DNA from: Flavobacteriales bacterium
GTDB lineage: Bacteria; Bacteroidota; Bacteroidia; Flavobacteriales_G; Salibacteraceae
Assembly (NCBI GenBank): GCA_013204105.1
Contig: JABMOM010000028.1
Coordinates: forward strand, 62,001-126,000
DNA length: 64,000 nt
Direction of reading: 5' to 3'
The position numbers and the translations under genes are program-made. The notes beneath the pieces are model-generated. The model was not told the origin of the DNA. It saw only the letters and a program-made list of their open reading frames with translations, and did no database searches. Shown here one piece after another: positions 3,095-56,199 of this stretch. Positions within the stretch are counted from its first letter, which is position 1; each line of letters opens with the position of its first letter.

Positions 3095-3646
3095 ATGGTA
3101 AACGAAACAGTCTTCGATCACTTCCCAAAACTGACCACCCGTCGTTTGGTACTGCGCGACATTGAGATTGAAGACGCCGAAGCCATCATGCACATGCGGT
3201 CGAATAAGATGATCAACCGTTTCATTCCCCGGCCCGAAACGATAGAACTAGAGAGCGCCATTCAGTTGGTCGACCGAACACAAAAGGCATTCGAACACAA
3301 GCAAGCCATTGGATTTGCCGGCGTCTTACGCGGTCACCATACGATCATAGGGACCTGTGGCTTGATGAACATCGAGGTCGAGCATCGCCACGCAGAGATC
3401 GGAGGGGAAATGGCGACCGAGTACTGGGGAAAAGGAATCGCACAAGAGGCCTTTGAGGAGATCGTCCGATTTGGCCTAGAGGATTTGCGCTTGCACACGA
3501 TAGAGGCCAAGGTAAACCCAGAGAACCGAGGTGCCGTCCACCTGCTCGAGCAGCGAGGTTTTAAAAGAGAAGGCTACTTCAAAGATCGAGGCTTCTTCAA
3601 TGGAAGGTACCAGGACTTGGCGGTGTACACGCTGTTTGGGGATTAG
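3095..3646 (+). CDS. GNAT-family N-acetyltransferase (RimJ/RimL type)
   Basis: A 183-residue protein of normal length for the family. It starts with the typical LTTRRLVLRDI strand of RimJ/RimL-like acetyltransferases. The acetyl-CoA pyrophosphate-binding segment is EYWGKGIAQEA (about residues 109-119), matching the family Q/RxxGxG/A loop, followed by NPENRGAVHLLEQRGFKREG, the conserved C-terminal signature. These enzymes use acetyl-CoA to acetylate an amine, often a protein N-terminus, antibiotic or small metabolite; the substrate cannot be read from sequence. It is a single gene, divergent from the TPR gene, and is followed by a non-coding repeat region. Confidence 0.9.
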   Translation: MVNETVFDHFPKLTTRRLVLRDIEIEDAEAIMHMRSNKMINRFIPRPETIELESAIQLVDRTQKAFEHKQAIGFAGVLRGHHTIIGTCGLMNIEVEHRHAEIGGEMATEYWGKGIAQEAFEEIVRFGLEDLRLHTIEAKVNPENRGAVHLLEQRGFKREGYFKDRGFFNGRYQDLAVYTLFGD

Positions 3647-3909
3647 CTCACTGAGCTCGGCTTCGCCTCGCTTGGGGAGTAGGGATTAGGGATTAGTGAA
3701 TAAGCATTAGCTCATCAGTTCATTAGCTCATTGTTGTTGCAGTTGAGATTGAAAACTCGCAGCTAGCTTCTGGCTACTGGCGGCTGGCTTGTGCAACGGC
3801 CAGCCCAAGCAATTTTACTGGAAGGACTTTCTAACCATCCGAGATTGCAGTGGCAGTTGAGTTTGAAGTTGCAAGCGAATGAAACGCGTGACTTGTTTAT
3901 CTTTCGCCC
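3647..3909. repeat. Modular intergenic repeat, copy 1
   Basis: Non-coding stretch built from short modules that recur in the same order at 11195-11370. In order they are CTCACTGAGCTCGGCTTCGC, then runs of GGGATTAG/GGGAGTAG, then ATTAGCTCATTAG-like units, then TTGCAGTTG, then AGCTTCTGGC and GCTGGCT. A hairpin (GGCTGGC at 3782-3788 with GCCAGCC at 3799-3805) lies inside. No ORF with coding character was found. It separates the acetyltransferase from the DUF1853 gene. Confidence 0.7.
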
Positions 3910-4731
3910 ATGTTCAGTTCAGAAGAAATCGGGCGGTTGAGTGCTTTGGGATTGTATCAGTGTAGTTCTCTGCTGGCTGAAGCGGAGATTCCGGGGGTTG
4001 CCTTATTCGAGATGGACTTAGACCCCAGCTTTCCTCCTTTTGAAACGATCCTTCCCGAGGGCTTGGTAATCGGCAAATGCGCCGAGGCCTATATGAAGCA
4101 CTATCTCCATTGCCATCCGGACTTTGAATTGATCGCAGACAATGTGCAAGTGGTGGTAGAAGGAGGAACCTTAGGCGAATTTGACTTTTTCTACCGGGAT
4201 CTGAAGCTCGACAAAACGGTGCACTTAGAGATGGCTTGCAAGTGGTACTTACTAGATCCTGATGCGGTACAAGGGGAAGAATGGACAGGCCCGAATCGGC
4301 GAGATTTTTTATCTCAAAAGCTTAAAAAGCTCTACGAACAACAATTCGCGCTGTTGAATGATCCCCGATCCTTACCGCGTTTGAAGGAAATTGGAATTGA
4401 CCCGCGTGCAAGCGAGCAGCGATTGGCACTCCCTGGCTTTGCGTTTGTGCCCTCCGCATATGAAGGAAGCGACCCCTCCATTAGTCCATCGGCCATCGCA
4501 GGAACGTGGTGTCGCATGGAAGAATTCTTAGCTCGGGAGGATGAAGGCAATCAGCATTACTTATGCGAGCGTAAAGAATGGCTCATTGACCCAATGTACA
4601 ACCGAACATGGCACGCACGCCCGAGCATCGTAGATGAACTTACCAAACAGCTGAAGCAGAAGTATTCGCCCATGGTGTGGACACTGCACCCTGATGGCTC
4701 AGTGGAGCGAACCTTTATTGTTTGGTGGTAA
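3910..4731 (+). CDS. DUF1853 family protein
   Basis: A 273-residue protein. The core matches DUF1853: GEFDFFYRD (E90, D92) is followed by HLEMACKWYL (E107, K111) and then a W-x-GPNRRDFLSQK segment. From memory, this family belongs to the PD-(D/E)XK nuclease-like superfamily. The spaced acidic residues and lysine would be the remnant active site, but nuclease activity has not been established for the family as far as I know. No signal peptide, so probably cytoplasmic. It stands alone between a repeat region and the sulfurtransferase gene. The family call is good; the function is unknown. Confidence 0.75.
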   Translation: MFSSEEIGRLSALGLYQCSSLLAEAEIPGVALFEMDLDPSFPPFETILPEGLVIGKCAEAYMKHYLHCHPDFELIADNVQVVVEGGTLGEFDFFYRDLKLDKTVHLEMACKWYLLDPDAVQGEEWTGPNRRDFLSQKLKKLYEQQFALLNDPRSLPRLKEIGIDPRASEQRLALPGFAFVPSAYEGSDPSISPSAIAGTWCRMEEFLAREDEGNQHYLCERKEWLIDPMYNRTWHARPSIVDELTKQLKQKYSPMVWTLHPDGSVERTFIVWW

Positions 4732-4802
4732 TTTGAGTTCGCGACCCGCTGCCTCGGGGAGGAATTTACTTTTAGATATCCGTTTAGTCAAACAGCAATA
4801 CC

Positions 4803-5621
4803 ATGCCTAGCCCCCTACTTTCCGCAGCTGCCTTCCTGTCATTGATCAACGGCCCTGAACTTGTCATCCTAGACGCCACCTTTGGTCCGAATGCACAAGA
4901 GCAATACCTCCAATCGCACATCAAAGGAGCCCACTGGGTAGACCTCAACCGTCAACTTTCTGACATCGGGCCAGACCCAAGCAGAGGAGGCAGACATCCT
5001 CTTCCATCTGCCAGTGACTTTGCCCAGACGCTGGGTAAGTTGGGCATTGACCCTACTTCTAAGGTCGCGATATACGATCGGAACTTCGGTGCACTTGCGG
5101 CGGCGCGTTGCTGGTGGATGCTGCGGTCAATGGGGCACGAAAACGCTTGGGTCATCGACGGCGGATTGCAAGCAATACAGCAAGAGGGTGGAATCATCTC
5201 ATCAAGTCAAGCACCCGAACCCGCTGAAAAGCCACCTTATCCAACTTCAGAATGGCAGCTTCCCCTATTATCTATGCGAGGATTGGAAGAAAGGAAAGGA
5301 GAGGGCTCTGTACTCATCGACGTGCGTGAGGCCGATCGATTCAACGGCATCCATGAACCCATTGATCTCATCGCCGGACATATTCCTGGAGCTCTGAATG
5401 TTCCCTATACCCAAAACCTCAATGAAGATGGCACCTTTAAATCTCCTGAGGCATTGTCAACTTTGTACGGCCCGTTGATTGGAAAAGATGAAGATGTAGC
5501 ATTTTACTGCGGTTCAGGGGTTACCGCTTGCCATGGAATCCTTGCCTTGGCCCATGCAACAGGTCGCATGGCCGCTTTGTATCCAGGGTCTTGGAGTGAG
5601 TGGTCAAGGAATGAACATTGA
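4803..5621 (+). CDS. Sulfurtransferase, 3-mercaptopyruvate type (tandem rhodanese)
   Basis: A 272-residue protein with two rhodanese domains: an inactive N-terminal one (about 5-135) and a catalytic C-terminal one (about 160-270). The active-site loop is CGSGVTA with the nucleophile at C236. The CGSGVTA form, rather than CRKGVTA, is the mark of 3-mercaptopyruvate sulfurtransferases over thiosulfate sulfurtransferases. The reaction moves a sulfane sulfur from mercaptopyruvate to a thiol or cyanide acceptor, giving pyruvate. No signal peptide, so cytoplasmic. It is monocistronic, 141 bases before the fasciclin gene. SseA is the E. coli homologue; I leave the symbol empty because many paralogues exist. 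Confidence 0.88.
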   Translation: MPSPLLSAAAFLSLINGPELVILDATFGPNAQEQYLQSHIKGAHWVDLNRQLSDIGPDPSRGGRHPLPSASDFAQTLGKLGIDPTSKVAIYDRNFGALAAARCWWMLRSMGHENAWVIDGGLQAIQQEGGIISSSQAPEPAEKPPYPTSEWQLPLLSMRGLEERKGEGSVLIDVREADRFNGIHEPIDLIAGHIPGALNVPYTQNLNEDGTFKSPEALSTLYGPLIGKDEDVAFYCGSGVTACHGILALAHATGRMAALYPGSWSEWSRNEH

Positions 5622-5762
5622 AACCAAAGGGTGATGAACAGCTATAAACCCATTCCCTCAAATGTTAACTTTTCAATGTCGATACATTTATTTTAAGCAA
5701 TCGTAAACTTTCTTGAAACGATAGTGTTTAAACTTTCAACTCAAACATTAAACAAAATCGTT

Positions 5763-7736
5763 ATGAACCGAATTATGTTACGCTTTAAAATGAGGATTTT
5801 GGCATTGGCTGGAGCTTTGCTTCTTTCAGGCCTAGCCGTAAACGCACAAACCAACGTATTTGATGACATCATCTCTACGAGTGCCAACCACACGTATTTA
5901 AAAGCTGCTCTCGAGCAGGAAGGATTGGACGCTGCCCTTCAAAATGGCGCTTCCACCTTGACCGTTTTTGCACCGACCAACCAAGCGTTCGAAAACCTTG
6001 CAGATGCTTTGGACACCAACATCGCGGGTCTTTTGGCGTTGGGAAACCTTGACGAAGTGTTATTGTACCACGTACTTGGAACAACCGTTGCTTCTTCAGC
6101 AGTTACAAATGGCGCGATTGTAACGCCTTTGAATACTGTAAACACCATCAAAATGACGAAAACCAGTGCTGGTGCAGTCTACGCAAACCAAGCATTGGTT
6201 AATGCGGCTGATTTAACAGCTGACAATGGTGTTGTTCATTCTGTTGACGCTGTTCTTCTACCCTCTGAAACGGTAGTAGACATCGCGCTTGACAATGGCT
6301 TCTCTACCTTGGCGACTGCAGTAGTTACTGCTGAGCTTCTTCCTGCGCTTACAGCTCCTTTGGCATCCCTTACCGTATTCGCTCCTACCAACGATGCTTT
6401 TGACAACCTCGCTACGGCGCTTAACACAGACATCAATGGACTGTTGGCCTTGACCAACCTTTCAGACATCTTAGTGTACCACGTTTTGGGAGCAGAAGTT
6501 GAAGCAAGCATGATCACCAATGGTGATATCGTGAACCCTTTGAGCGCTACCAACACCTTGAAGTTGACCAAGACGTCTACCGGAGAGGTTTACATCAACC
6601 AAGCGATGGTTTCTACTGCAGATATCGCTGCAGACAATGGAATCGTACATGTATTGGATGCCGTGCTACTTCCATCTGAAACAGTGGTTGACGTAGCATT
6701 GGACAATGGTTTCTCCACATTGGCAACAGCAGTTGTGACAGCAGAATTACTTCCTGCATTGACAGATCCTTTGGCCGGCTTGACGGTATTTGCTCCGACC
6801 AACGAAGCTTTCGATAGCCTCGCATCTAGCTTGAACACCGACATCAATGGCCTTCTTGCTTTGAGCAATTTGGGAGATATCTTGACGTACCACGTGCTCG
6901 GTTCTGAAGTAATGGCCGGTGATATTACAAACGGTGCGGTGGTTTCTCCACTCAGCGCTACCAACACCTTGAAGCTTACCAAGACATCTGGCGGCATGGT
7001 GTACGTAAATCAAGCCATGGTAACTACTGCCGATATCATGGCGGACAACGGTTACGTGCATGTACTTGATCAAGTTGTACTTCCAAACGAAACGGTTGTG
7101 GATGTAGCACTTGACAACGGCTTTTCTACACTGGCCACTGCAGTGATCACCGCTGAATTGTTGCCAGCATTGACAGATCCATTCATGGAGTACACTGTCT
7201 TTGCTCCAACCAATGAGGCATTCGACGCATTGGCTGCAGGTTTGAATACCGACATCGCTGGCCTACTGGCACTTGAGACGCTATCTGACATTCTACTCTA
7301 CCACGTGGTTTCGGGTACGGTACTTTCTACCGAACTCGCAAACGGTGATGTACCAACATTAAATGGCTTGAGTGTGACCATAGACCTTACCAACGGTGTA
7401 ATGGTGAACAGCGCAACCGTTACTTCCGCAGACATTGCAGCTGACAACGGTGTAGTGCACGTCATTGACGGAGTGCTGTTACCTATTCCTGCTGGAGTGA
7501 ATGATGTTACATCTGAAAATGTGAACGTCTTCCCTAATCCAGCAGTAGACGTATTGATGATCAGCAATTTCAACAACGCACGTTACGAAATCATCGACAT
7601 CAAAGGAGCTGTGATCCTTCAAGGTTTCGTTTCTGACAACAACGCCATCGAAGTTTCAACCCTCGACCAAGGTTCGTACTTCGTACGCTTGCAAAAGGAA
7701 GATGCAGTTGCTCAGCGCACCTTCATCAAGCTGTAA
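5763..7736 (+). CDS. Secreted protein with four fasciclin domains and a T9SS type A tail
   Basis: A 657-residue protein from the ATG at 5763; the frame opens earlier at 5724, but the added residues would bury the signal peptide (MRILALAGALLLSGLAVNAQ). Four FAS1 domains follow, each with the H1 block TVFAPTNxAF and the H2 block LxYHVLG. Domains 2-4 repeat with an exact 411-bp (137-residue) period at DNA level. The C-terminus (about 585-657) is a type A sorting domain: NVFPNPAVD, a DIKGAVI strand, then GSYFVRL and TFIKL. FAS1 domains mediate cell or matrix adhesion, so this is probably a surface adhesin exported by T9SS. A terminator follows directly. Confidence 0.93.
   Translation: MNRIMLRFKMRILALAGALLLSGLAVNAQTNVFDDIISTSANHTYLKAALEQEGLDAALQNGASTLTVFAPTNQAFENLADALDTNIAGLLALGNLDEVLLYHVLGTTVASSAVTNGAIVTPLNTVNTIKMTKTSAGAVYANQALVNAADLTADNGVVHSVDAVLLPSETVVDIALDNGFSTLATAVVTAELLPALTAPLASLTVFAPTNDAFDNLATALNTDINGLLALTNLSDILVYHVLGAEVEASMITNGDIVNPLSATNTLKLTKTSTGEVYINQAMVSTADIAADNGIVHVLDAVLLPSETVVDVALDNGFSTLATAVVTAELLPALTDPLAGLTVFAPTNEAFDSLASSLNTDINGLLALSNLGDILTYHVLGSEVMAGDITNGAVVSPLSATNTLKLTKTSGGMVYVNQAMVTTADIMADNGYVHVLDQVVLPNETVVDVALDNGFSTLATAVITAELLPALTDPFMEYTVFAPTNEAFDALAAGLNTDIAGLLALETLSDILLYHVVSGTVLSTELANGDVPTLNGLSVTIDLTNGVMVNSATVTSADIAADNGVVHVIDGVLLPIPAGVNDVTSENVNVFPNPAVDVLMISNFNNARYEIIDIKGAVILQGFVSDNNAIEVSTLDQGSYFVRLQKEDAVAQRTFIKL
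6291..7487 (+). repeat. 411-bp tandem repeat encoding FAS1 domains 2-4
   Basis: The segment encoding DNGFSTLATAV recurs at 6291, 6702 and 7113, exactly 411 bases apart. Each unit also carries matching stretches for AELLPALT, TVFAPTN, NTDIxGLLAL and YHV. The first FAS1 domain of the gene (from about 5865) is more divergent and not in this register. The regular phase indicates internal tandem duplication inside the gene. Confidence 0.85.
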
Positions 7737-7782
7737 ACAGAACCATATAGCATACGGTCGGGATTGCCGGCCGGTCGATAAA

Positions 7783-7809
7783 GAGCTCAGCAACTTGCTG
7801 GGCTCTTTT
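7783..7809 (+). terminator. Intrinsic terminator of the fasciclin gene
   Basis: Inverted repeat GAGCTCAGCAA / TTGCTGGGCTC (one G-T mismatch, tight loop), followed by a short T run, 46 bases after the stop codon. Confidence 0.75.
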
Positions 7810-8061
7810 CATTTTATCCTGTCCAGCCGCCATTATTTCATTGAGGGTATCAAATACAAAACTTTCCGGGCGATGCATGGGCCATTGGAATTGTACATTG
7901 CGCTCATAGAACTAACCCACTCATTCGATGAGGCTCAGCGCAGGGAGATCGCATTGGAAACAGCTCCCTTCCGGTAGGATTTTTCATCCATGGACCTTGA
8001 TTGAATCATTACAAGACTTCACCAAGACTCGCTCGAGCTCAAGGGCTCATGCATACGCCAT
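7810..8061. other. Intergenic region without a supported gene
   Basis: Between the fasciclin terminator and the oxidoreductase start. A frame entering from the fasciclin gene continues to 7977, but it has no convincing start, crosses the terminator and resembles nothing I recognise. The sequence could be decayed coding DNA or simply spacer; no repeat module or RNA element is visible. Confidence 0.5.
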
Positions 8062-9036
8062 ATGAAAGCAGCCATAAGATATCAATACGGTGGTCCAGCA
8101 GTGATCTCCATCGAAGATGTGCCGAAACCTAACCCCAAAAAAGGCGAGGTACTCATTCGCGTACACTCCACCACCATCAATCGCACGGATGGTGGAATTC
8201 TGCGCGGCAAGCCCTACTTGATACGCGCCTTTTCGGGTCTTTCGAGGCCCAGAAAAACGACCCCAGGAACCGACTTCGCTGGAGTCGTGGAATCCATTGG
8301 AGAAGGCGTTACCTCTTGGAAGCCTGGCGATCGCGTCATGGGCTTAAACGACCATGGGAACGCCGCATCTCAGGCGGAGTTCATGGTAACGGATGCCTCC
8401 GTCCACATGATCATAATTCCGGAAGGGATCTCCTATCAAAACGCCGTGGCCTCGCTAGAAGGAGCGCATTATGCATTGAATTTCTTAAACAAGTTTTCAC
8501 TCCAGGCGGGAGATCGGGTCCTCATCAACGGCGGTACCGGTGGCATAGGCTCAGCGGCCATCCAATTGGCGAAGGCTGAGGGTCTGCACGTGACAGCAAC
8601 CAGTAGTACTGCGTACATGGACAAGGTGAAAGCTCTGGGTGCAGATGAGGTGATTGATTACACGAAAGAGGACTTCACCTTGCAGGATAACATTTACGAT
8701 CATGTCTTCGACGAAGTGGGGAAGCGAACGTTCTTCGAATGCAGACGGATCCTCAAACCCGGGGGGATTTACATTTCAACCGAGTTAGGTCCCTACTGGC
8801 AGAACATTTGGTTGGCGCTGATTACTCCCTTAGTCGGTGGTCGGAAAGTGATCTTCCCTGTACCTGTGGACATACCCAGCACCCTTGTATCCATGCGGGA
8901 TCATCTTGAACGCGGCAGCTTCTCCCCGCTGATCGATCGAAGCTATTCGCTTGCCGATATTCGCGAAGGATACACCTATGTGGAGAGCGGTGAGAAAAAG
9001 GGAAACGTCATACTAGAGCTCAACCAAAGTAATTGA
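8062..9036 (+). CDS. Zinc-independent MDR oxidoreductase (quinone reductase-like)
   Basis: A 324-residue medium-chain dehydrogenase/reductase. The N-terminal GroES-like domain (about 1-125) contains TPGTDFAGVVESIGEGV and lacks the Cys/His ligands of the catalytic zinc. The Rossmann domain has the nucleotide-binding motif GGTGGIGSAA (about 158-167) and the ALGADEVIDY segment typical of NAD(P)H:quinone oxidoreductase/zeta-crystallin-like members. It probably reduces quinones or enones with NADPH in the cytoplasm; the substrate is not readable. It is a single gene with a short gap to the next small membrane protein gene. Confidence 0.88.
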   Translation: MKAAIRYQYGGPAVISIEDVPKPNPKKGEVLIRVHSTTINRTDGGILRGKPYLIRAFSGLSRPRKTTPGTDFAGVVESIGEGVTSWKPGDRVMGLNDHGNAASQAEFMVTDASVHMIIIPEGISYQNAVASLEGAHYALNFLNKFSLQAGDRVLINGGTGGIGSAAIQLAKAEGLHVTATSSTAYMDKVKALGADEVIDYTKEDFTLQDNIYDHVFDEVGKRTFFECRRILKPGGIYISTELGPYWQNIWLALITPLVGGRKVIFPVPVDIPSTLVSMRDHLERGSFSPLIDRSYSLADIREGYTYVESGEKKGNVILELNQSN

Positions 9037-9149
9037 ACGCATAAGCCTCGTGGGATGAGAATGACGTTGGCTGAAAAGTGAATGAAAGCCTCATTGCATG
9101 TTCTTCTTTAAAATTATTATACTTTTCATCTTTCCTAAACCTCACGCCT

Positions 9150-9572
9150 ATGCACCCCATTGCCAGAAACATACTCGCCGTCATCCTTGGATGGATCGGT
9201 GGGAGCATCGTCAATATGGCCCTCATTCAATTGGGTAGTTCCGTTTTACCCATTGAAGGAGTAGATCCCAACGACATGGATGCTTTGGCAGAAGTGTTGC
9301 CCAGCTTGGGCGCTAAGTATTTCATTTTTCCTTTTTTGGCCCATGCACTGGGCACGTTGGCTGGAGCGATCCTTGCCGGGTTGATCGCGGCATCGCATAA
9401 GATGACCTTTGCACTTTCTGTAGGTGGAATCTTTCTCCTTGGTGGCATCACGGTAAATTATCTCTTGCCCGGTCCAATTTGGTTTACCGTCGCAGATATC
9501 GGGGTTGCTTATCTACCCATGGCCTGGATCGGAGGGAAAATCGCAATGTATTTCATCAGCAAATCAAAATAG
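9150..9572 (+). CDS. Small membrane protein with about four helices
   Basis: A 140-residue protein from the ATG at 9150 (the frame opens at 9078, but the internal MHPIARN start gives a natural N-terminus leading straight into a helix). Four hydrophobic segments are visible at about 5-30, 50-75, 80-105 and 112-135, with small-residue motifs such as AILAGLIAA. No charged pore or catalytic motif stands out. I do not recognise it beyond a conserved-hypothetical integral membrane protein. It sits between an oxidoreductase and a PLD lipoprotein on the same strand. Confidence 0.7.
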   Translation: MHPIARNILAVILGWIGGSIVNMALIQLGSSVLPIEGVDPNDMDALAEVLPSLGAKYFIFPFLAHALGTLAGAILAGLIAASHKMTFALSVGGIFLLGGITVNYLLPGPIWFTVADIGVAYLPMAWIGGKIAMYFISKSK

Positions 9573-9631
9573 GGTTAGACTAGCAGGTGCATTCTCTATT
9601 TATCAGCTTCTTCTCTGGCTTCCATGTCTTG

Positions 9632-11170
9632 ATGAAACGCATCATTTACTTCTTTTTTATGATCGAGGTGCTTGCGGCATGCGGCGGAGAGGAACAGAAG
9701 GAAATACTGTCTGGCCCCATTGAAACCGACTTTTGCATGAACATCCATAGAGACGATAGCATCACACTTTCTGGGGTTCTACAAGATTTGCAAGACCAAA
9801 TGGCCGACAGCACGGGTGCTTATGTCTTAGAGGATGGTGATGGTGCCATGGTGATTCGGGCGTGGTTGTGTGAATACGCGGAAAAAACCATTGACCTTCA
9901 ATACTTCATCTTCTCCACCGACAATGTTGGTTTGATCGCCTGTGACTACCTCGTTCGCGCCGCAGATCGAGGCGTCAAAGTCCGAATCCTTGTGGACGAC
10001 ATCATGGTCGATGCAAGTTTGGAAGACGTGCTGATCATGGACGCACACCCTAACATCGAAGTGAACATCTACAATCCTGGGGTTAACCTCGGTAAAAACC
10101 TCGTCGAAAAGGCAGGGAAGTTTGCAAGCGATTTTCGAGGAGCGAACCAGCGCATGCACAACAAGACCTTTACGGTGGATGGAAAAGTGGTGATAACCGG
10201 AGGAAGGAATGTGGCGGATGAGTACTTTGATTACAACCACGATTTTAATTTTCGCGACCGTGATGTTCTGTTGATTGGAGGGATTGTGGAAGATGTTTCT
10301 ACTTCATTTGAAGGCTTTTGGAACCACCGCCTCAGCGTTCCAGTGGCACAACTCAGCGATGAGCCGAAGCCAGTCGCCACTGAAACAACCTATGATAGAC
10401 TCCACGCCTACGCCTGTGACCCAAGCAATTTTTGGCCACAGGTGCGCGAGCGCATCGAGCATCTGCCGGAGGCCATTGATAGGATTAAAACCTCAGGAGA
10501 CATCGTCTGGCTCAACGACATTCGCTTTATCGCCGATACAGCAGGCAAGAACAGCGGCGATCAAGGATTGGAAGGTGGAGGTGTGACTACAGACGCGTTG
10601 ATAGCCCTCGTCCAACAAGCCACGTCCAGCATAGAAATTCAAACACCCTACTTGATTACCACCGATCGAAGCCGCGCCCTGTTCAAGTCCGTCATTGATC
10701 GGGGGGTACGTGTACGCATCCTCACCAACAGCTTAGCCTCCACCGACAATGTACAGGCCTTCGGCGCCTACCAAAGCGAGCGCGAAGCCTTACTGGCAAC
10801 GGGGGTGGAGATTTACGAATTGCGACCCGACGCCCAAGTGAGAAAGGATATCATGACGGGAGAATTGCAAAAGGAATTGGATCACCAGCCCATCTTTGGG
10901 CTGCACGCAAAAGGAATGGTGATCGACGGACACACCACGGTGATCGGCACGTTCAACCTAGACCCACGCAGTGCAAACCTCAATACGGAGTGCATTACCA
11001 TCATGCAATCGGATCGCATTGCCGAGCAGGTAGCAAGCCACATGGAAATCGAATTTCAACCCGAGAACGCGTGGAAGATCACCACAGATTTCAATCCAGA
11101 CGACGAGGTAAGCGTGACAAAGCAGTTGAAAACCTGGACCATGAAGGCCCTGCCGAAGGGGATTCTTTAG
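9632..11170 (+). CDS. Phospholipase D-family lipoprotein (cardiolipin synthase-like)
   Basis: A 512-residue protein from the ATG at 9632, which gives a lipoprotein signal ending in LAAC with the lipidated cysteine near residue 17. Two HKD catalytic motifs are present: HNKTFTVDGKVVITGG (H176) and HAKGMVIDGHTTVIGTFN (H425), each with the downstream G-G/S-x-N segment. Both being intact predicts an active phosphatidyl transferase or phospholipase. The layout resembles the ClsC/YmdC-type envelope PLD proteins rather than ClsA, since transmembrane helices are absent. It would act on phospholipids at the periplasmic face of a membrane. It is followed by 450 bases of repeat-rich spacer. Confidence 0.9.
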   Translation: MKRIIYFFFMIEVLAACGGEEQKEILSGPIETDFCMNIHRDDSITLSGVLQDLQDQMADSTGAYVLEDGDGAMVIRAWLCEYAEKTIDLQYFIFSTDNVGLIACDYLVRAADRGVKVRILVDDIMVDASLEDVLIMDAHPNIEVNIYNPGVNLGKNLVEKAGKFASDFRGANQRMHNKTFTVDGKVVITGGRNVADEYFDYNHDFNFRDRDVLLIGGIVEDVSTSFEGFWNHRLSVPVAQLSDEPKPVATETTYDRLHAYACDPSNFWPQVRERIEHLPEAIDRIKTSGDIVWLNDIRFIADTAGKNSGDQGLEGGGVTTDALIALVQQATSSIEIQTPYLITTDRSRALFKSVIDRGVRVRILTNSLASTDNVQAFGAYQSEREALLATGVEIYELRPDAQVRKDIMTGELQKELDHQPIFGLHAKGMVIDGHTTVIGTFNLDPRSANLNTECITIMQSDRIAEQVASHMEIEFQPENAWKITTDFNPDDEVSVTKQLKTWTMKALPKGIL

Positions 11171-11623
11171 TTTGGCCGCTTTGCGGCGGGGAGTAGGGAG
11201 TAGGGATTAGGGATTAGCTCGCTTCGCTCACTGAGCTCGGCTTCGCCTCGGTTAGGGATTAGGGAGTAGTTGATTAGAGGATTAGACCATTAGCTCATTA
11301 GTACATGAGCACATTGAATTTGCAGTTGTTGTTTAGCTTCTGGCCGCTAGCTGCTGGCTTCTGGCTGTTGATTTTGATAACCCAGTACTGATCTTTACTC
11401 TTCCATCTTTCAGCACTCCCCCTGTTCTCGATACATCCACGCCTTTGGCGTGGCCACTCGAACTGACAACTTGAGAAGGAGCTCCCTACTCCACTTTTCA
11501 CTTTTAGTTTTACCTTTTCACTCCCCCTACTCCCCTTTTCACTAACCCCCAAACCAATCACCTGACCACCATCATGTTTATTTCCCATAGCATGGTTCAC
11601 CTTTACCCAAATGAAAATGCATA
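11171..11623. repeat. Modular intergenic repeat, copy 2, with hairpin element
   Basis: A non-coding stretch of 453 bases. Its first half (11195-11370) repeats the module order of 3647-3800: GGGATTAG runs, the CTCACTGAGCTCGGCTTCGC block (about 11227), ATTAGCTCATTAG, TTGCAGTTG, then AGCTTCTGGC and GCTGGCT. Its second half carries GGGAGTAGGG-type motifs on the opposite strand (about 11480-11545), so the region is roughly an inverted pair. No coding frame is supported. Confidence 0.7.
11423..11468. repeat. REP-like hairpin element
   Basis: TGTTCTCGATACA, then a perfect 7-bp hairpin CCACGCC-TTT-GGCGTGG (11437-11453), then CCACTCGAACTGACA. The outer arms (GTTCTCGA and CTCGAAC) are imperfect inverted repeats. 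Hairpins flanked by TATCGAGAAC and GTTCGAGT arms are, from memory, dispersed in many Flavobacteriia genomes. Confidence 0.6.
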
Positions 11624-15850: not shown

Positions 15851-18800
15851 ATGAAAACGAAGTTACTCCTGGCAGTGATGCTGCTGTGCGCTAGCCTATT
15901 CAGTACCGCCGAAGAAATCTTACAAGGCCATCAAGCCTATCAAACCCTTAGAGGAACTGAGCTCCTCCGACTAGAGGATCACACCTCGATTCCAACCTTC
16001 ATTAAATTCAGAGAAAGCGATCGCATCAGCGTCAATAACTGGCAAAGCTGGATGAAAATGCATTTCTTCAAAGAGTCGAAAGGCGTTGGGTTTGACCTGA
16101 TCGGTGAGCAATCTGACAAAATGGGCATGACCCATTACCGCTACCAGCAAACCGTAAGTGGTGTGCCCATGTCCTTTGCCATTTGGATTGTCCACACATT
16201 GAACGGCGAGGTCGTCAGCATGAACGGTGAGTTGTTTGAGAATATCCCGAGCACTCAGCCATCGCTCACTGAGCAAGCTGCGCTACAAGCGGCCTTGGAT
16301 CACATGGACGCCAGTACCTACATGTGGGAAGTACCCGCCGAAGAGGAAATGCTGAAAATGATGCAAAACGACCCGACGGCAACCTATTTGCCCAACGGAT
16401 CCTTAGAAGTGTTTACAAGCGGATTAGATGGGAAGACCATAGAGCACCATCTTGCCTGGAAATTTGACATCTACGCCCACACTCCCCACGCTCGAAAGGA
16501 ATTGTACTTCGACGCTTCTAATGGAAGCCTCTTATTTGAAAATGAGCGCATCCATCATGCAGACAGTGCCATTACCGCTCAAACCATGTACTCAGGTGAG
16601 CAAACCCTCATAGCCGATCATGACAACGGCAACTTCTGCTTGCATGAGACAGGACGAGGCAACGGTATCCACACTTGGAACCTGAATTATGGAACAGACT
16701 TCTCGGCAGCCGTCGATTTTTGTGATTCTACCAATGTATGGGACGACACCTTGAATTTCGATCAGTACAGCACCGACGCTCATTTTGGGACGGAGATGTA
16801 CTACGACTACCTCATGGATCGATTCAATCGCAACAGCATCGACGACAATGGTTTTGCCTTGCACAGTTATGTGCACTACAGTACAAACCTCGTCAACGCT
16901 GGATGGGATGGAGCGCGTATGATTTATGGCGACGGCAATGGCGGCGCAGTTACCCCTCTAACCTCCTTGGATGTTTGCGGTCACGAAGTGACACATGGCC
17001 TCAACACATTTACCGCCAACGAGGTATACTGGAAGGAAGCAGGGGCGCTGAATGAGAGTTTTTCGGACATATTTGGTTCTGCGTTGGAATTCTATGTGGA
17101 TCCAACATCCGCTGACTGGACGATGGGTGAAGACTTCGGGCTTATCATTCGCTCAATGTCCAATCCGAATCTATATGGACAGCCAGATACATACTTAGGA
17201 GGGTCATGGCAAACGACCGCCGGAGACAATTATGGCGTTCACACGAACAGTGGTGTTCAGAACTATTGGTTTTACCTCATCTCTGAAGGTGGTTCTGGCA
17301 CGAACGACAACGGAGACGCCTTCTCTGTGGACAGCATTGGCGTGATGGACGCAGAGGCAATTGCTTTCCGCAACTTGACCGTATATATGACGCGATTCAG
17401 CAATTATGCCGACGCTCGCTTCTATTCTATCCAAGCAGCCGTAGATCTTTTTGGCGCTTGCTCTCAACAAGTAGAAAGTACTTGGTCTGGATGGTATGCA
17501 GTAGGCGTTGGACCTGATTTTTCTTCGAATAGCGTTTCTTCGGACTTTGTCGCCAACCTAACCTCCAATTGTTCTGCGCCACTAGCTGTCCAATTCTACA
17601 ACCAGAGCTACCAGGGAAACACCTTCTTATGGAACTTCGGTGACGGAAACACTAGCACAGCATTTGAGCCAACCCACACCTATACTTCGGCTGGAGACTA
17701 CACAGTTTCTCTGCATACATCGTCTTCTTGCGGTGCTGATTCCATCACCAAGGTGGACTACATGCGCGTTGGCTCGAGTGATACCTGCCACGTGCTTTTA
17801 GCGAGCAATGGGACGGCCGTTACTCAAACCAATTGCGAGGGAATCGTTTACGATGACGGCGGCCCTATGTATGGCTACAGCCCCAACAGCGACGCGATGA
17901 TTACGATTGCACCGACGGGTGCCCAAAGCGTAACGCTGACCTTCTTGCAGTGGGTAATTGTGTGCGACGGCGCAGACTACCTGTATGTATATGATGGGAG
18001 CGACAGCCTAGCACCTCTCTTGGGTCTGTATTGTGAAGACTCTCCGCCTCCAGCTAGCATTACGTCGTCAGGATCAGCGATCACCTTGGTCTTCCGATCC
18101 AATGAAGAATGGTTAGAAGACGAGGGATTTGCCGTGGCTTGGGCGTGCAACACCCCTGAAGAAGCTCCCATTGCAGGTTTTTCAGTAGACAGAACTTACA
18201 GCTGCGGTGGCACCGCCAATTTTACTGACCAATCTGCACTCGGTCCTAATACAGCAACTTCATGGTTCTGGGATTTCGGCGATGGAAATACCAGCACGCT
18301 TCAGAACCCGAGCCATACCTACCAAAACGAAGGTGTATACACGGTCAAATGCGCTGCCATCAACCCGTTTGGAACAGACACCATGACCATCGTAAACTTG
18401 ATCGAAAAAGCCCTTCCGATGACTCCAACTGGACCGGATGTAGAGGTTTGCCCGGGAGATCAAGCCACTTTGATTGCTTACAGTACTGGAACCAATACTT
18501 GGTATGACTCCGATACTGGATCCACCGTATTGACGGTAGGTGACACCTTCGTTACTCCGATCGTGAATCAGTCTACCCCGTTCTACGTAGAGAACTATGG
18601 AGCAGTGACTACGGACACAACGGGGGCACCCAACAAACTCATCGGAACTGGAGCCAATACAAGCCTGGATCAGGGACTGTACTTCGATGCGCTATCTGAC
18701 TTCCGATTGCATGCTGTAACGGTCTACACCCTTTTGCCTGGAGATCGACATATCTTTATTGAGCATCCTACCAACGGGGTCGTCCACGACACCACGATTA

Positions 18801-19327
18801 ACATTGCCACGGGGGAAGTCACCTTGTTACTCGATTTTGATATCGAAGCGGGACAGGATTACCTGTTTAAGGTAGACAATACCCAGATGAATGGTCTCTG
18901 GAGAAACAATGGTGGGGTGGATTACCCCTATGAAATTCCTGGCATGGTGAGCATCTATGGAAGCACCGCGGGTCCAGGCTTTTACTATTGGTTCTACAAC
19001 TGGCAAGTTCAAGAGCTGTGCACGTCAGAGCGCGAAATGATCTCGGCCAGCACGGGAGTATGCACTGGTGTTTCCGAAATTGCAGAAGAAGCTTACCAGC
19101 TCTTCCCGAACCCAACCGATCGCATGATGACCGTAAAATGGTCAAGTACCGAGCGTCCTCAGGGCATGCAACTCTATTCGGCATCCGGAGCATTGGCACG
19201 AACAATACCTGTACCGCACTCCGTAGGTCAAGTAGAACTCGATCTCGGTGGTTTGAGTCAGGGTGTATATTTTCTTCAGATCAATGAAGGAGCCAACGTT
19301 ATTACCAAACGAGTGGTGACTCAGTAG
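15851..19327 (+). CDS. M4 metalloprotease with PKD/CUB/Ig modules and T9SS tail (paralogue 1)
   Basis: A 1158-residue secreted protease. Order: signal peptide (1-20), FTP/propeptide region (about 25-230), thermolysin-like catalytic domain with HEVTH (378-382), third zinc ligand E402 in GALNESFSD, and the transition-state histidine H464 in GVHTNSGVQN. Next come a PKD domain with WNFGDG (594), a CUB-like domain (about 665-765), a second PKD with WDFGDG, an Ig-like CPGDQATL module, a unique beta domain (about 915-1055) and a type A sorting tail (FPNPTDR ... GVYFLQI). All catalytic residues are intact. It is the first of three head-to-tail paralogues and uniquely has Cys just before HEVTH (VCGHE) where the others have Ala. 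Confidence 0.95.
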   Translation: MKTKLLLAVMLLCASLFSTAEEILQGHQAYQTLRGTELLRLEDHTSIPTFIKFRESDRISVNNWQSWMKMHFFKESKGVGFDLIGEQSDKMGMTHYRYQQTVSGVPMSFAIWIVHTLNGEVVSMNGELFENIPSTQPSLTEQAALQAALDHMDASTYMWEVPAEEEMLKMMQNDPTATYLPNGSLEVFTSGLDGKTIEHHLAWKFDIYAHTPHARKELYFDASNGSLLFENERIHHADSAITAQTMYSGEQTLIADHDNGNFCLHETGRGNGIHTWNLNYGTDFSAAVDFCDSTNVWDDTLNFDQYSTDAHFGTEMYYDYLMDRFNRNSIDDNGFALHSYVHYSTNLVNAGWDGARMIYGDGNGGAVTPLTSLDVCGHEVTHGLNTFTANEVYWKEAGALNESFSDIFGSALEFYVDPTSADWTMGEDFGLIIRSMSNPNLYGQPDTYLGGSWQTTAGDNYGVHTNSGVQNYWFYLISEGGSGTNDNGDAFSVDSIGVMDAEAIAFRNLTVYMTRFSNYADARFYSIQAAVDLFGACSQQVESTWSGWYAVGVGPDFSSNSVSSDFVANLTSNCSAPLAVQFYNQSYQGNTFLWNFGDGNTSTAFEPTHTYTSAGDYTVSLHTSSSCGADSITKVDYMRVGSSDTCHVLLASNGTAVTQTNCEGIVYDDGGPMYGYSPNSDAMITIAPTGAQSVTLTFLQWVIVCDGADYLYVYDGSDSLAPLLGLYCEDSPPPASITSSGSAITLVFRSNEEWLEDEGFAVAWACNTPEEAPIAGFSVDRTYSCGGTANFTDQSALGPNTATSWFWDFGDGNTSTLQNPSHTYQNEGVYTVKCAAINPFGTDTMTIVNLIEKALPMTPTGPDVEVCPGDQATLIAYSTGTNTWYDSDTGSTVLTVGDTFVTPIVNQSTPFYVENYGAVTTDTTGAPNKLIGTGANTSLDQGLYFDALSDFRLHAVTVYTLLPGDRHIFIEHPTNGVVHDTTINIATGEVTLLLDFDIEAGQDYLFKVDNTQMNGLWRNNGGVDYPYEIPGMVSIYGSTAGPGFYYWFYNWQVQELCTSEREMISASTGVCTGVSEIAEEAYQLFPNPTDRMMTVKWSSTERPQGMQLYSASGALARTIPVPHSVGQVELDLGGLSQGVYFLQINEGANVITKRVVTQ

Positions 19328-19355
19328 GAGACTCAGCATAGGACTTATATTACAC

Positions 19356-19387
19356 AAGCTCCGGCACACCAACGCCGGAGCTTTTTT
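19356..19387 (+). terminator. Intrinsic terminator of M4 protease 1
   Basis: Perfect 10-bp stem AAGCTCCGGC / GCCGGAGCTT with an 8-base loop, followed by T6. It separates the transcript from the second protease gene. Confidence 0.95.
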
Positions 19388-19484
19388 ATGCTCGAAATGT
19401 TCCTGTCGCCCGAGCCATTTTTATGTGCATTTAGCAATCCTAGGTTGATCGAATCCACCCGACTCACTTGTGGTTTCGGAGGAG

Positions 19485-19492
19485 TATATTTG
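19485..19492 (+). promoter_or_regulatory. Candidate -7 element of M4 protease 2
   Basis: TATATTTG matches TAnnTTTG, 20 bases before the ATG at 19513 and after the terminator of the preceding gene. The nearest TTG (19468-19470) is only 14 bases upstream, shorter than usual for a -33 box. Confidence 0.35.
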
Positions 19493-19512
19493 GGGAACCT
19501 AACTAAATTTCC

Positions 19513-22500
19513 ATGAAGCAATTTGTACTCTCTCTGATCGTACTCACCACCCTCTCCTTTACTACCAACGCCGAACAAGTCCTCACCGGAAGAGCAGCCA
19601 ACGAAGCTGTGAAAGGTGCAGAAATGGTTCGGTACAAGGAATCTTCTAGCATTCCGGCATTCATCAAATTCCGAGAAAGCGCCCGCATTGAATACGCCGA
19701 TTGGCAGCAATGGATGAAAACGCGCTATTTCAAGGAATCCAAGCACGTGGGCTTTGAGTTGATCGGCGACGAGGTCGACCGTTTGGGTATGGTGCACTAC
19801 CGCTTTCAGCAAACCGCCGGAGGCAATCCCGTCACCTTTGGTGTTTGGATCGTACACACCTTGAATGACAAGGTGATCAGCATGAACGGAATGCTCTTCG
19901 ATGAGGTGCCTGTGAGCACTGCAGCCCTGGCTGAAAAAGCGGCACTTTCACACGCATTAGCGCACGTGGGTGCGGAGACCTACAAGTGGGAGATTCCTGC
20001 AGAAGAAAACGACATCAAGGAAATTAGCAACGATCCGAATGCTAGCTATTTCCCAAAAGGCGCCCTCGAAATCATCAATCCTGATGCTTCACTTCGCTCG
20101 ATCGATCTTAAACTGGCATGGAGGTTCAACATCTATGCCCACGCTCCAATGTCTAGGCAAGATGTATTTGTTGATGCTTTGACAGGAGCGATCCTTTTCG
20201 AAAACAATCTTATCCATGAGGTCGATAGCAGCATCATCGCCGTCACTGGTTACTTGGATACGCAGAACATTATCGCGGATTACAACGGAAGTAATTTTCG
20301 CTTGCGAGAATCTGGAAGAGGAAATGGCATCTTCACTACGGACATGAACAATGGCACCACGGGTGCAGGCGTTGATTTCACACATGGGGACAATGTGTGG
20401 GATGACAATACAGTAAGTCGATTCGCAACTGACGCGCATTTTGGAGCTGAGATGACCTTTGATTTCTTCCTTGCACATTTCAACCGAAACAGCATTGATA
20501 ACAACGGCTTCGCGCTTCGAAGTCGAGTGCATTACGGCAACAATTTCGCGAATGCATTTTGGGATGGCTCGTACATGACTTACGGTGATGGAAGCACTGG
20601 GAATTTTCCCTTTACAGCATTGGATGTCGCGGGCCACGAGATTACACATGGCCTAACAAGCTTTACCGCCAACTTGATTTACCAAGCCGAATCTGGTGCC
20701 TTAAACGAAAGCTTCTCAGACGTTTTCGCTGCTGCCATTGAAAGAGATGCGCTGGGTGAAAACAGCGGGGAATGGCTGATTGGTGAAGACCTAAACTTTC
20801 TCATTCGGAACATGAGCAACCCGAATGCCTTGGGTGATCCCGACACCTATTTCGGAACCTATTGGGCTTCCTTGACAGGTGGTGACAACGGCGGCGTGCA
20901 TACCAACAGCGGTGTGCAGAATTTTTGGTTCTACTTGCTATCAGAAGGCGGAAGTGGCACCAACGACAACAATGACAACTACTCTGTTACGGGAATCGGT
21001 ATTGAAGATGCGGCTGCGGTTGCTTTTCGCAATTTAACTGTTTACCTAACCGTTTCTAGCGATTACTCAGATGCTCGTTTCTATGGAATCCAAGCTGCTG
21101 TAGATTTGTTTGGTCCGTGCTCCCAAGAAACCGAGAGTACGTGGACTGCATGGTACGCGGTTGGGCTTGGTGATGTGTATACAGGTGAAATAGTCGTGGA
21201 TTTTGTACCCGACATAGATGAGCACTGTCAAGCACCTGCAACCGTACAATTCTCGAACTTGACCACACTAGGATCAACCTACATTTGGGATTTTGGAGAT
21301 GGAAACACAAGCAACGCATTTGAACCATCTCACACGTATACTAGTGATGGTGTCTATACGGTTTCTTTGGTCGCAAGCTCGAACTGTGATGCGGACAGTA
21401 CCATCTTCGTTGACCTCATTAAAGTAGGCCCAAATTACCCGTGTAATATTATTCTTCCATCTTCTGGCGGATTGGCTACAACACAAACCAGTTGTGAAGG
21501 AGTCCTCTACGATGATGGAGGCCCCTTGGGTACGTACAGTGCAAACTACAACTCTACCATTACGATTGCTCCGACCAATGCGGTAGGTGTATCCCTTGAG
21601 TTCATCGAGTTCAACGTAGAAACCGATCCAAATTGTCAATACGACTACCTCACCGTCTACGATGGTCCGAATACCGGCTCCACTGTGATTGGAACGTATT
21701 GCGATGGCAATCCTCCCCCCGCCTTTGTCAACTCCACTGGACCGAGCATTACGATGCAGTTTAGCACAGATGTGGCGCTGGAAGAAGATGGATTCAAGAT
21801 TGGATGGGAATGCAGCATTCCAACGGAAGCACCCTTGGCCGATTTTGAGGCCGATTTGGTGGAAACCTGCAAAGGCGACATCAACTTTACCGATATTTCA
21901 AGCTTAGGCTCAAACATTCCAACAGGGTGGTATTGGGAATTTGGCGACGGCGACACTTCGAACCTTCAGAACCCGAGTCATTCTTACGCCTCTAGCGGAC
22001 TCTATACCGTAATGATGGTGGCTTCGAATTCATTTGGTTCAGATACCGTAATCAAGACGAATTACATCGATGTGGATAAACCTGCTGCCCCAGAAGGCGA
22101 AGACGTAGAAGTCTGTCCAGGCGATCAAGCGGATCTTATCGCGAGCAGCGCGGGCATTCACTATTGGTATGACACTCCATCTGGAGGATCTCCAATCGCT
22201 GTGGGTGACACGTTCACTACCCCTATTGTGCAGCAATCTACTCCATTCTATGTAGAAGCAGAAGTAGCGGGTCCGGCCCAGTCAACTGGCGCTCCCGACA
22301 ATAACATTGGCACTGGAGCCTACTTCAACTTCTTGCAATCCATCTATTTCGATGTGTTCAGTCCTTTCAGGTTGAAGAGCGTGACCGTATATACTGCGTT
22401 GCCAGGCGATCGAGAGATCATCGTCTTGGACCAAGCACAAAACGTGGTAAAGGACACCATCATCAACATAGCGACAGGTGAGCAAACCTTGGAACTGAAC

Positions 22501-23004
22501 TGGGATTTTCAACCTGGGACAGACTACCAAATGACCCTTGACGCAAACAGCACCATCGGCCTTTATCGAAACAACGGTGGCGTGAATTACCCTTATGAAA
22601 TTCCTGGCGTAGTGAGCATCCATAAGTCAAGTGCGCAAGGTGATCCGTATTCGTATTACTACTTCTTCTACAACTGGCAAGTACAAGACATCTGCGTGAG
22701 TGATCGTGCCATGATCTCTGCCAGCACTGGCGTTTGTACAGGTGTAGAGGAACGAGACAATACATCTCAGTATTCCATCTTCCCGAACCCAACACAGGGC
22801 AAGGTGAACATCACCTGGGAAGGAAATGCACACCCAGGCAGCATCTCCATCTACGATGCGGCCGGAAGCCTCATCGATCGGGTTGCTGTTCCTGCTCAAG
22901 CTAACTTCATCGACCTGAATTTAGGTTCGTTGAGCAGCGGCATTTACCTGCTCAAAGGAAGCAATGACATGCAGCCTTTGATGGAGCGTGTGATTGTAGA
23001 ATAA
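19513..23004 (+). CDS. M4 metalloprotease with PKD/CUB/Ig modules and T9SS tail (paralogue 2)
   Basis: A 1163-residue protein with the same architecture as its upstream neighbour and aligning along its full length. Signal peptide (1-20), propeptide region, catalytic domain with HEITH (375-379) and E399 in GALNESFSD, GVHTNSGVQN histidine, PKD with WDFGDG, CUB-like module with YDDGGP and YDYLTVYDG, second PKD with WEFGDG, Ig-like CPGDQADL, the unique beta domain with RNNGGVNYPYEIPG, then the type A tail (SIFPNPTQGK ... GIYLLKG). Catalytic residues intact, so presumably active. It has its own upstream -7-like box and downstream terminator, so it can be expressed separately from the other two. 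Confidence 0.95.
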   Translation: MKQFVLSLIVLTTLSFTTNAEQVLTGRAANEAVKGAEMVRYKESSSIPAFIKFRESARIEYADWQQWMKTRYFKESKHVGFELIGDEVDRLGMVHYRFQQTAGGNPVTFGVWIVHTLNDKVISMNGMLFDEVPVSTAALAEKAALSHALAHVGAETYKWEIPAEENDIKEISNDPNASYFPKGALEIINPDASLRSIDLKLAWRFNIYAHAPMSRQDVFVDALTGAILFENNLIHEVDSSIIAVTGYLDTQNIIADYNGSNFRLRESGRGNGIFTTDMNNGTTGAGVDFTHGDNVWDDNTVSRFATDAHFGAEMTFDFFLAHFNRNSIDNNGFALRSRVHYGNNFANAFWDGSYMTYGDGSTGNFPFTALDVAGHEITHGLTSFTANLIYQAESGALNESFSDVFAAAIERDALGENSGEWLIGEDLNFLIRNMSNPNALGDPDTYFGTYWASLTGGDNGGVHTNSGVQNFWFYLLSEGGSGTNDNNDNYSVTGIGIEDAAAVAFRNLTVYLTVSSDYSDARFYGIQAAVDLFGPCSQETESTWTAWYAVGLGDVYTGEIVVDFVPDIDEHCQAPATVQFSNLTTLGSTYIWDFGDGNTSNAFEPSHTYTSDGVYTVSLVASSNCDADSTIFVDLIKVGPNYPCNIILPSSGGLATTQTSCEGVLYDDGGPLGTYSANYNSTITIAPTNAVGVSLEFIEFNVETDPNCQYDYLTVYDGPNTGSTVIGTYCDGNPPPAFVNSTGPSITMQFSTDVALEEDGFKIGWECSIPTEAPLADFEADLVETCKGDINFTDISSLGSNIPTGWYWEFGDGDTSNLQNPSHSYASSGLYTVMMVASNSFGSDTVIKTNYIDVDKPAAPEGEDVEVCPGDQADLIASSAGIHYWYDTPSGGSPIAVGDTFTTPIVQQSTPFYVEAEVAGPAQSTGAPDNNIGTGAYFNFLQSIYFDVFSPFRLKSVTVYTALPGDREIIVLDQAQNVVKDTIINIATGEQTLELNWDFQPGTDYQMTLDANSTIGLYRNNGGVNYPYEIPGVVSIHKSSAQGDPYSYYYFFYNWQVQDICVSDRAMISASTGVCTGVEERDNTSQYSIFPNPTQGKVNITWEGNAHPGSISIYDAAGSLIDRVAVPAQANFIDLNLGSLSSGIYLLKGSNDMQPLMERVIVE

Positions 23005-23015
23005 AGTACATTATC

Positions 23016-23063
23016 AATAGGTTCAATTCCGGGCACCATCGCCTTGGATTGAACCTATTTTTC
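23016..23063 (+). terminator. Intrinsic terminator of M4 protease 2
   Basis: Perfect 12-bp stem AATAGGTTCAAT / ATTGAACCTATT with a 20-base loop, followed by T-rich sequence, 12 bases past the stop. Confidence 0.85.
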
Positions 23064-23106
23064 GTTCAAACGTCTTTTAATAGAACCTCTCTAAACAGCA
23101 TCATCC

Positions 23107-35900: not shown

Positions 35901-35956
35901 GATTTCTTTTGAAGCCTCTCGGAGGTCAGGATACTAGTCCGTACATTCGCATTTGA

Positions 35957-36059
35957 CTTATCAAGAAAGACCGAGGGATTAGGCCCTTTGACGTCTTAGC
36001 AACCTCCGAGCTTCGGAAAGGTGCTAAATCCGACTCCACCGCCGGTGGGGAAAGATGAG
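35957..36059 (+). ncRNA. SAM-I (S-box) riboswitch
   Basis: The leader of metH shows P1 (CTTATC 35957-35962 with GATGAG 36054-36059), the P2/k-turn region (GAGGGATTAGGCCC), the conserved TTAGCAACC, P3 (CCGAGCTTCGG), AAGGTGCTAAATCCGAC and P4 (CCACC-GCC-GGTGG). These are the hallmarks of the SAM-I aptamer. It should sense S-adenosylmethionine and turn down metH/metF expression when SAM is high. No terminator with a T run is obvious between 36059 and the ATG at 36108, and no Shine-Dalgarno is present, so the expression platform is unclear. Confidence 0.93.
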
Positions 36060-36107
36060 TTCAAGATAGATACCCTCTATTTCTTGACAGGTCACAGATA
36101 CACGACA

Positions 36108-48672: not shown

Positions 48673-48673
48673 T

Positions 48674-51199: not shown

Positions 51200-51215
51200 G
51201 GTGCAAAAGTAACCG

Positions 51216-53693: not shown

Positions 53694-53709
53694 CCCGCTA
53701 ATTTACACC

Positions 53710-56187: not shown

Positions 56188-56199
56188 GGTACTAAGGTA

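Follow-up and report, generated by a model that had tools for sequence, protein, structure and literature searches.

An ordered composite repeat of short tandem tracts and palindromes, dispersed between genes in a Flavobacteriales species and its sister

Two gaps between genes in a 64,000-nucleotide stretch of a Flavobacteriales genome (assembly GCA_013204105.1, contig JABMOM010000028.1, positions 62,001–126,000; hereafter the window) contain short non-coding tandem tracts which follow one another in a similar order, at 3638–3874 (copy 1) and 11175–11535 (copy 2). These raise the question of whether the two belong to one family and, if so, how a repeat made of such simple parts is copied and altered. 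An original prediction, made from the window, proposed a family of intergenic elements, perhaps non-autonomous, which grows by slippage and could act in transcript processing. The existence of a family of intergenic, non-coding elements is borne out: further copies lie across the genome, mostly between genes, and they do not appear to be parts of decayed genes. We consider that these copies probably represent a non-autonomous, dispersed, non-coding composite repeat which turns over by recombination or template switching.

The modules predicted for the two copies are present in both, at the predicted positions and in the predicted order. Exact strings common to both are CTCACTGAGCTCGGCTTCGC (at 3647 and 11227) and TTGCAGTTG (at 3737 and 11320), while GCTTCTGGC occurs at 3766 in copy 1 and at 11336 and 11357 in copy 2, and runs of GGGATTAG are found in both; a further string thought to be shared, ATTAGCTCATTAG, is exact in copy 2, but copy 1 has ATTAGCTCATCAG instead. 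The opposite-strand motifs proposed near 11480–11545 exist, but not as something separate; they are reverse-complement units of module B, here called b, near the 3′ end of copy 2 itself (Table 1). The fullest text of the element reads A-B-C-B-D-E-F-H-G-K-b-I, and a fuller member spans about 200–400 nt. It consists of tandem tracts of 7, 8 and 6 nt (B, a G-rich heptamer; D, an octamer; and E, a hexamer), further tracts F, H, K and I, palindromic inserts (A, C and G), and b units near the 3′ end.

Searching the window's own genome (G000; 3.1 Mb in 46 contigs) with the two halves of copy 2 yields 60 matches for the 5′ half (E up to 10) and 38 for the 3′ half (E up to 0.01). These merge into about 34 loci, both halves being present in 15; the merge used 29 of the 60 and 35 of the 38 rows, omitting 31 and 3 weaker ones, and one omitted 3′-half row (C17:57213, E 8.6e-4) would make a 35th locus. 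The copy number is probably underestimated, because contigs end in elements: such ends are seen at the end of contig C25, the end of C37, the start and end of C38 and the starts of C3 and C17, and two contig ends stop directly after module C. For counting, ten module patterns were drawn up from copies recognised by eye and applied to a 606-kb G000 sample that was partly picked for its matches. This sample holds 25 clusters with at least three module types, compared to none in three first-order Markov copies, and an alignment of 270 nt at 80% joins elements on two contigs, non-repetitive palindromes included. In five sampled pieces of G000 and of its sister G009, a member of the same genus, module C is intergenic in 7/7 cases and module D in 22/29, where intergenic DNA is just 6–10% of the sampled sequence; single B octamers fall mostly in genes and were treated as background. 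GC skew, sought as a hint of a terminus or origin, does not clearly change sign within the repeat-rich region sampled.

The modules keep a preferred order and strand. Relative to the order A B C D E F H G K b/I, 24 clusters of G000 give 359 concordant and 43 discordant module pairs, whereas 5000 shuffles of the order give a mean of 200.6 and a maximum of 254; for G009 the pairs are 149:33, against a shuffle mean of 91.0 and a maximum of 124. G009 provides the fairer test because the order was set after seeing G000, though some of its sites are orthologous. Directional modules lie on the majority strand in 70:0 cases in G000 and 38:2 in G009 (expected for random strands, 50.8/70 and 29.8/40), and B precedes b in 17:0 and 10:0 pairs, respectively. 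Order is also kept inside module D, a string of 8-nt words each ending in ATTAG or a variant, which tend toward a single text, TTG-AGG-ACC-CTC-TGC-CTC followed by AAGTTGCAGTTG. In unlinked copies the early words are ordered (TTG ahead of CTC 12:0, AGG ahead of CTC 8:0), while the late words recur (TGC and CTC 8:7, CTC and CAC 6:4); these counts include every array found by pattern, chance arrays in genes among them. Since word order is kept, the D tracts appear to be copied, inherited text with units missing or added. Growth by slippage is for the most part not supported, as slippage alone would not yield kept word order; it is at most a secondary process.

The sister genome indicates how the elements change. 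DNA surrounding them aligns at 77–92% between the two species, and two-sided G009 orthologs exist for 9 of the 25 G000 clusters, with modules at 8 of these 9 sites; conversely, 10 of 16 G009 elements have two-sided G000 orthologs, all ten with modules. Only copy 1 departs from this. Its outer neighbour genes are the same in G009, but the interval compared there (G009:C3:603449-604241) is without the element and carries, in place of a GNAT-like open reading frame (ORF) and copy 1, a different ORF that is CPBP-protease-like by eye and has an in-frame stop after 124 codons. At the mostly shared sites the content has diverged. In chained alignments 3/9 G000 elements match their ortholog better than any other G009 element, and in 6/9 another G000 element is closer than the ortholog; single best alignments, which penalise indels, gave the ortholog as best in 2/9, and the chained alignments were preferred. 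The pairing of one of the nine (C38:162441) relies on position and a single flank, and the set does not include copy 1, which has no counterpart element at the sister site. Between copy 2 and its ortholog, which is still its best match, discrete pieces differ: a 19-nt palindrome, P, is present only in G009, as a clean present/absent difference, while a B–D piece, most of F, and G are present only in G000. P occurs as five exact copies in G009, whereas the remaining 12 genomes of the genus, among them G000, have no exact copy. Modules lie at the edge, in either genome, of 12/23 alignment gaps between the two species, and G000-side modules are found in 5/14 regions with length differences of at least 500 nt, compared to 13/130 other intergenic regions (Fisher p 0.017). 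A role of the elements in marking gene gain and loss has modest support here; alignment gaps also arise at modules simply through divergence.

C and P, the small palindromes, seem to be inserted into short tandem arrays as self-contained pieces. When C is excised, the array period is restored, the best-fit length being 30 nt at 8 sites, 38 nt at 4 and 42 nt at 4, together 16/28 sites, while the remaining 12 have scattered best-fit lengths of 23 to 55 nt; three more of the 31 sites had too short a right flank to be scored. At 14 of the 16 sites of recurrent length TT immediately precedes the left edge, the exceptions being one G009 site and an unrelated Hyphomicrobiales coding match. The right edge was set by the search string. 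In a control with shifted ends the mean score was 0.78, versus 0.74 shifted, and at 6/28 sites the site's own score equalled or exceeded the best shifted one; this control is uninformative because periodic flanks absorb the shift. Given the fixed right edge and the weak control, defined ends of C are at most suggested. The 21-nt core of C occurs exactly in 23 stretches of public genomes, three of them G009 itself. Among the other 20, 11 have a 6–8-nt periodic flank on at least one side at p <= 0.01 (300 shuffles, uncorrected for two sides), in words which differ from those of the composite, such as CAAAGTTT, CGGATTT and CTTTTTA. All 11 are Bacteroidota records, five from one metagenome bin, and two of these five (L044, L058) have a common left flank; the nine that fail the test include the Hyphomicrobiales match and a Wenzhouxiangella record.

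A history that accommodates these observations is that copies of the composite multiplied in an ancestor common to both species, and that members may now exchange, gain or lose modules via short-homology recombination or replication template switching. Order would be kept under such exchange because, as we propose, it happens at matching modules, and we infer that an order kept amid changing content is best explained by exchange among copies. Several points weigh against it. No enzyme or intermediate was found (Y1_Tnp and RVT_1 were searched), and the copying mechanism is an inference. The module counts are not unbiased, as patterns and order were written after seeing copies, and the G000 cluster C46:131936, the 25th, has E and F on opposite strands and hence no majority, and was excluded from the order and strand counts. 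In the sister comparison an ortholog is set against the top scorer among 15 sister elements and 24 own ones, a design biased toward those others; three orthologous pairs, copy 2 included, remain best matches, and divergent content could also stem from fast decay of low-complexity DNA. Gene-size indels are just modestly enriched at modules, and the shifted-end control of C excision did not discriminate.

Could the tracts have arisen in another way? Independent microsatellites, grown in place by slippage and alike through low complexity only, would fit the units of 7, 8 and 6 nt and the unit numbers that differ between copies, but order at two levels, the 270-nt alignment through non-repetitive palindromes and the lack of clusters in Markov copies make this very improbable. 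Descent from decayed genes or from a former prophage or plasmid is barely credible: a mechanically called 100-aa ORF on the minus strand (11298–11600) does overlap copy 2, but it is taken for chance, and the periods of the B and D tracts, 7 and 8, are not multiples of 3. Carriage by a phage or plasmid was rejected, there being no phage match, no viral contig with the exact C core, and just two plasmid matches, both weak and confined to the E/F stretch. A classical miniature inverted-repeat transposable element (MITE), with B and b as terminal inverted repeats and moved whole by a transposase in trans, would account for the constant placing of B ahead of b, for a 5′ end that is often hairpin A plus B, for the dispersed and mostly intergenic sites, and for the somewhat better than shuffled folding of the 11 two-ended members. 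Nevertheless, B and b are reverse complements in kept order whose unit number and exact ends vary, and neither constant ends nor a whole-element target duplication was seen. Nor was a clean whole-element empty site found among nine two-sided G000 sites, the neighbouring gene also differing at the site of copy 1; clean present/absent differences are confined to pieces inside the element (P and G). A search of both genomes found one Y1_Tnp gene in each (Table 1), flanked by unrelated CCCCGTAGGGGCGACA-type repeats, and composite modules are not beside it except for a lone GGGGAGTAG; the flanks viewed were about 240 and 1,390 nt in G000 and about 1,470 and 1,390 nt in G009. A RAYT as the mover was thus rejected, as was a reverse transcriptase as the maker, with no RVT_1 at E 1e-3 in G000 or G009, both drafts. 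A MITE is on this evidence unlikely, and the predicted non-autonomous character is consistent with what was found, although Y1_Tnp and RVT_1, the two enzyme families searched, yielded no mover. Tandem copies of the CCCCGTAGGGGCGACA-type repeat by the Y1 gene are far more numerous in G000 than in its sister.

The tracts might instead act in RNA, as a terminator-like 3′ element, a G-quadruplex or a binding array. Copy 2 folds better than its shuffles (z −3.57, 0 of 100; z −2.4 with 30 shuffles) and its first B tract contains the start of the sole G3+N1-7 four-tract quadruplex motif of the window, but copy 1 folds no better than shuffled sequence (z −0.48), and among 33 elements, each compared with 30 shuffles, folding shows no consistent preference for one strand, although single elements differ. 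The median z on the two strands is −1.9 and −2.6 in the 11 members that carry B as well as b and −1.1 and −0.8 in the 22 others, as expected of inverted DNA ends rather than selected RNA. The four-tract motif, a predicted quadruplex, lies on the element strand in 6/41 elements and on the other strand in 7; module-bearing regions have no gene-orientation preference (6 co-directional, 3 divergent and 3 convergent, n=12, compared to 17, 7 and 7 of 31 others), and Rfam covariance models at gathering score match nothing at either copy. RNA structure as a common function was rejected, being neither general nor tied to one strand, and a regulatory or processing element is decidedly unlikely; the role in transcript processing that had been envisaged is unsupported. 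The composite is most simply parasitic or neutral DNA, which may help to make some sites variable.

The composite is narrowly distributed. It is shown by 2/13 genomes of the genus, G000 and its sister. In a genus-to-class set 3/41 genomes match at E 1e-3, all of one genus, and the same three are those that match at 1e-6 in an order-level set of 42; the third, G005, has an F-like stretch only. In a few genomes the best ~20 candidates were scored, which for G015 and G032 are not all of the first-look candidates. On G009 contig C3 (753 kb) all 8 matches listed, from the best 20 of this genome's 29 candidates, lie in the last 214 kb (539000–752000), which may point to regional clustering of the elements. 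The congener G005, which lacks the composite, shows short arrays of its own by eye (CTAATAC, TTTGTCT and GCTGGCT; L032, L034), the first of them enclosing a hairpin, as though the species spoke different dialects.

Descriptions of intergenic repeats in bacteria usually concern a single palindrome, a single tandem unit or a MITE, and BOX elements have a modular boxA-boxB-boxC build. Module B has the same unit (GGGGATT, GGGGACT) as the GGGGA(C/T)T and GGGNATC heptamer repeats of Nostoc and Xanthomonas (Rehm et al. 2015, PMC4692102), which are likewise tandem, dispersed and mostly intergenic, and in some cases directly follow or overlap a stop codon; in those bacteria the array of heptamers is itself the element studied, whereas here it is one module of an ordered composite, with no clear bias in gene orientation. 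The TAACTGA heptamers (MacGregor 2015, PMC4679880) are also intergenic and occur in some Bacteroidetes, and near relatives can have shorter, array-free intergenic regions, but they consist of one word, mostly upstream of start codons in the main organism, and no ordered modules figure in the portion of the account drawn on. BOX of the pneumococcus (Croucher et al. 2011, PMC3049150) is small, interspersed, sparser in a close relative and judged parasitic with slow insertion; by description it differs in that the modules of the composite are short tandem tracts with nested palindromes. The BrickBuilt MITE of Porphyromonas gingivalis (Klein et al. 2015, PMC4596501) is a Bacteroidota element, intergenic, with a leader-array-tail build and inverted-repeat ends, but has one 23-nt unit where the composite has several 6–8-nt tracts in a preferred order. 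C and P resemble, by description, SDR5, a small dispersed repeat of cyanobacteria that inserts precisely within HIP1 (PMC4390886): they too look like tiny pieces set precisely inside another repeat, while host phylum and target differ. Like repetitive extragenic palindromes (REP), REPIN and RAYT (PMC3116915, PMC3733652), A, C, G and P are short intergenic palindromes in genomes with one Y1 transposase per carrier; unlike them, the composite modules do not flank the Y1 gene. No description of this ordered composite was found in searches of open-licence PubMed Central papers, where three module strings and one near-string also returned nothing related. The composite is made of known kinds of parts, G-rich heptamers and small palindromes, in an ordered arrangement that these searches did not find described.

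Table 1. Coordinates of the modules of the two copies in the window, and of the Y1 transposase genes of the two carrier genomes
Feature	Position	Strand	Remark
Copy 1 B tract	3638..3696	+	GGGGATTAG, then GGGGAGTAGGGATTAGGGATTAG past C insert; first unit supplies TAG stop
Copy 1 palindromic insert C	3645..3673	+	short 29-nt variant, inside B
Copy 1 D tract	3703..3733	+	8-nt words AGCATTAG-CTCATCAG-TTCATTAG-CTCATTG
Copy 1 E tract	3734..3757	+	contains TTGTTGCAGTTGAGATTGAA
Copy 1 F tract	3758..3800	+	contains GCAGCTAGCTTCTGGCTACTGGCGGCTGGCT
Copy 1 second E-like stretch	3842..3874	+	
Copy 2 hairpin A	11175..11187	+	GCCGC-TTT-GCGGC
Copy 2 B tract	11188..11217	+	7-nt units
Copy 2 palindromic insert C	11216..11253	+	38 nt; removal restores heptamer array
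Copy 2 B tract, second part	11254..11269	+	
Copy 2 D tract	11270..11316	+	words TTG-AGG-ACC-CTC-TAC-CAC
Copy 2 E tract	11317..11334	+	below length needed by E search pattern
Copy 2 F tract	11335..11367	+	
Copy 2 H module	11368..11411	+	3′ end is ATCTTTACTCTTCCATCTTTC
Copy 2 G module	11424..11468	+	REP-like palindrome (TTCTCGATAC...GAACTGACA); missing at sister's orthologous site
Copy 2 b, reverse-complement B unit	11482..11492	-	
Copy 2 I tract	11492..11521	+	CACTTTTCACTTTTAG...
Copy 2 b, second reverse-complement B unit	11520..11535	-	
Y1 transposase gene, G000	C19:32099-32443		L114
Y1 transposase gene, G009	C3:346522-346866		L115

Copy 1 begins within the preceding ORF (3095–3646, GNAT-like by eye from its translation), whose TAG stop at 3644–3646 belongs to the first GGGGATTAG unit, and its E-like stretch extends to about 3874; an F-linker-E order resembling that of copy 1 is also seen by eye in L021 and in one G009 locus. 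Copy 2 follows the stop of an ORF which is phospholipase-D-like by eye from its translation (9587–11170) and occupies most of the gap up to the next plus-strand ORF (11624). In a congener the phospholipase-D-like gene is in three overlapping pieces, two with internal stop codons (L068–L070, G012:C160). Between the two copies, ORF 5724–7736 contains repeated stretches at a spacing of 411 nt, is fasciclin-like by eye, and is largely contained in 1.8 kb of G000 sequence to which 127 nt correspond in the sister. Elsewhere in the window, direct repeats about 3.6 kb apart at 17200–26400, the first inside ORF 15851–19327 (PKD-like by eye), suggest tandem paralogs, and long direct repeats, mostly in four copies about 2.5 kb apart, lie at 48651–58626. 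The sole Rfam match of the window is an S-adenosylmethionine (SAM) riboswitch (RF00162, 88.3 bits, 35955–36061, plus strand).

Further than this, it is tempting, though on balance doubtful, to picture the intergenic short arrays of Bacteroidota as a habitat for the precisely inserting palindromes C and P, with arrays and palindromes fusing into a composite that recombines by modules. Its persistent sites would then serve as exchange points at which neighbouring genes are gained or lost, in an integron-like manner without an integrase. Since module C is also found next to unrelated short arrays elsewhere in the Bacteroidota, targeting of arrays by small palindromes is an idea open to test by comparing strains. 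Contigs that end in elements may hide gene-content differences in metagenome assemblies. Because modules and words hold to their order although shared sites differ in content, a history of exchange may be readable from just two species.

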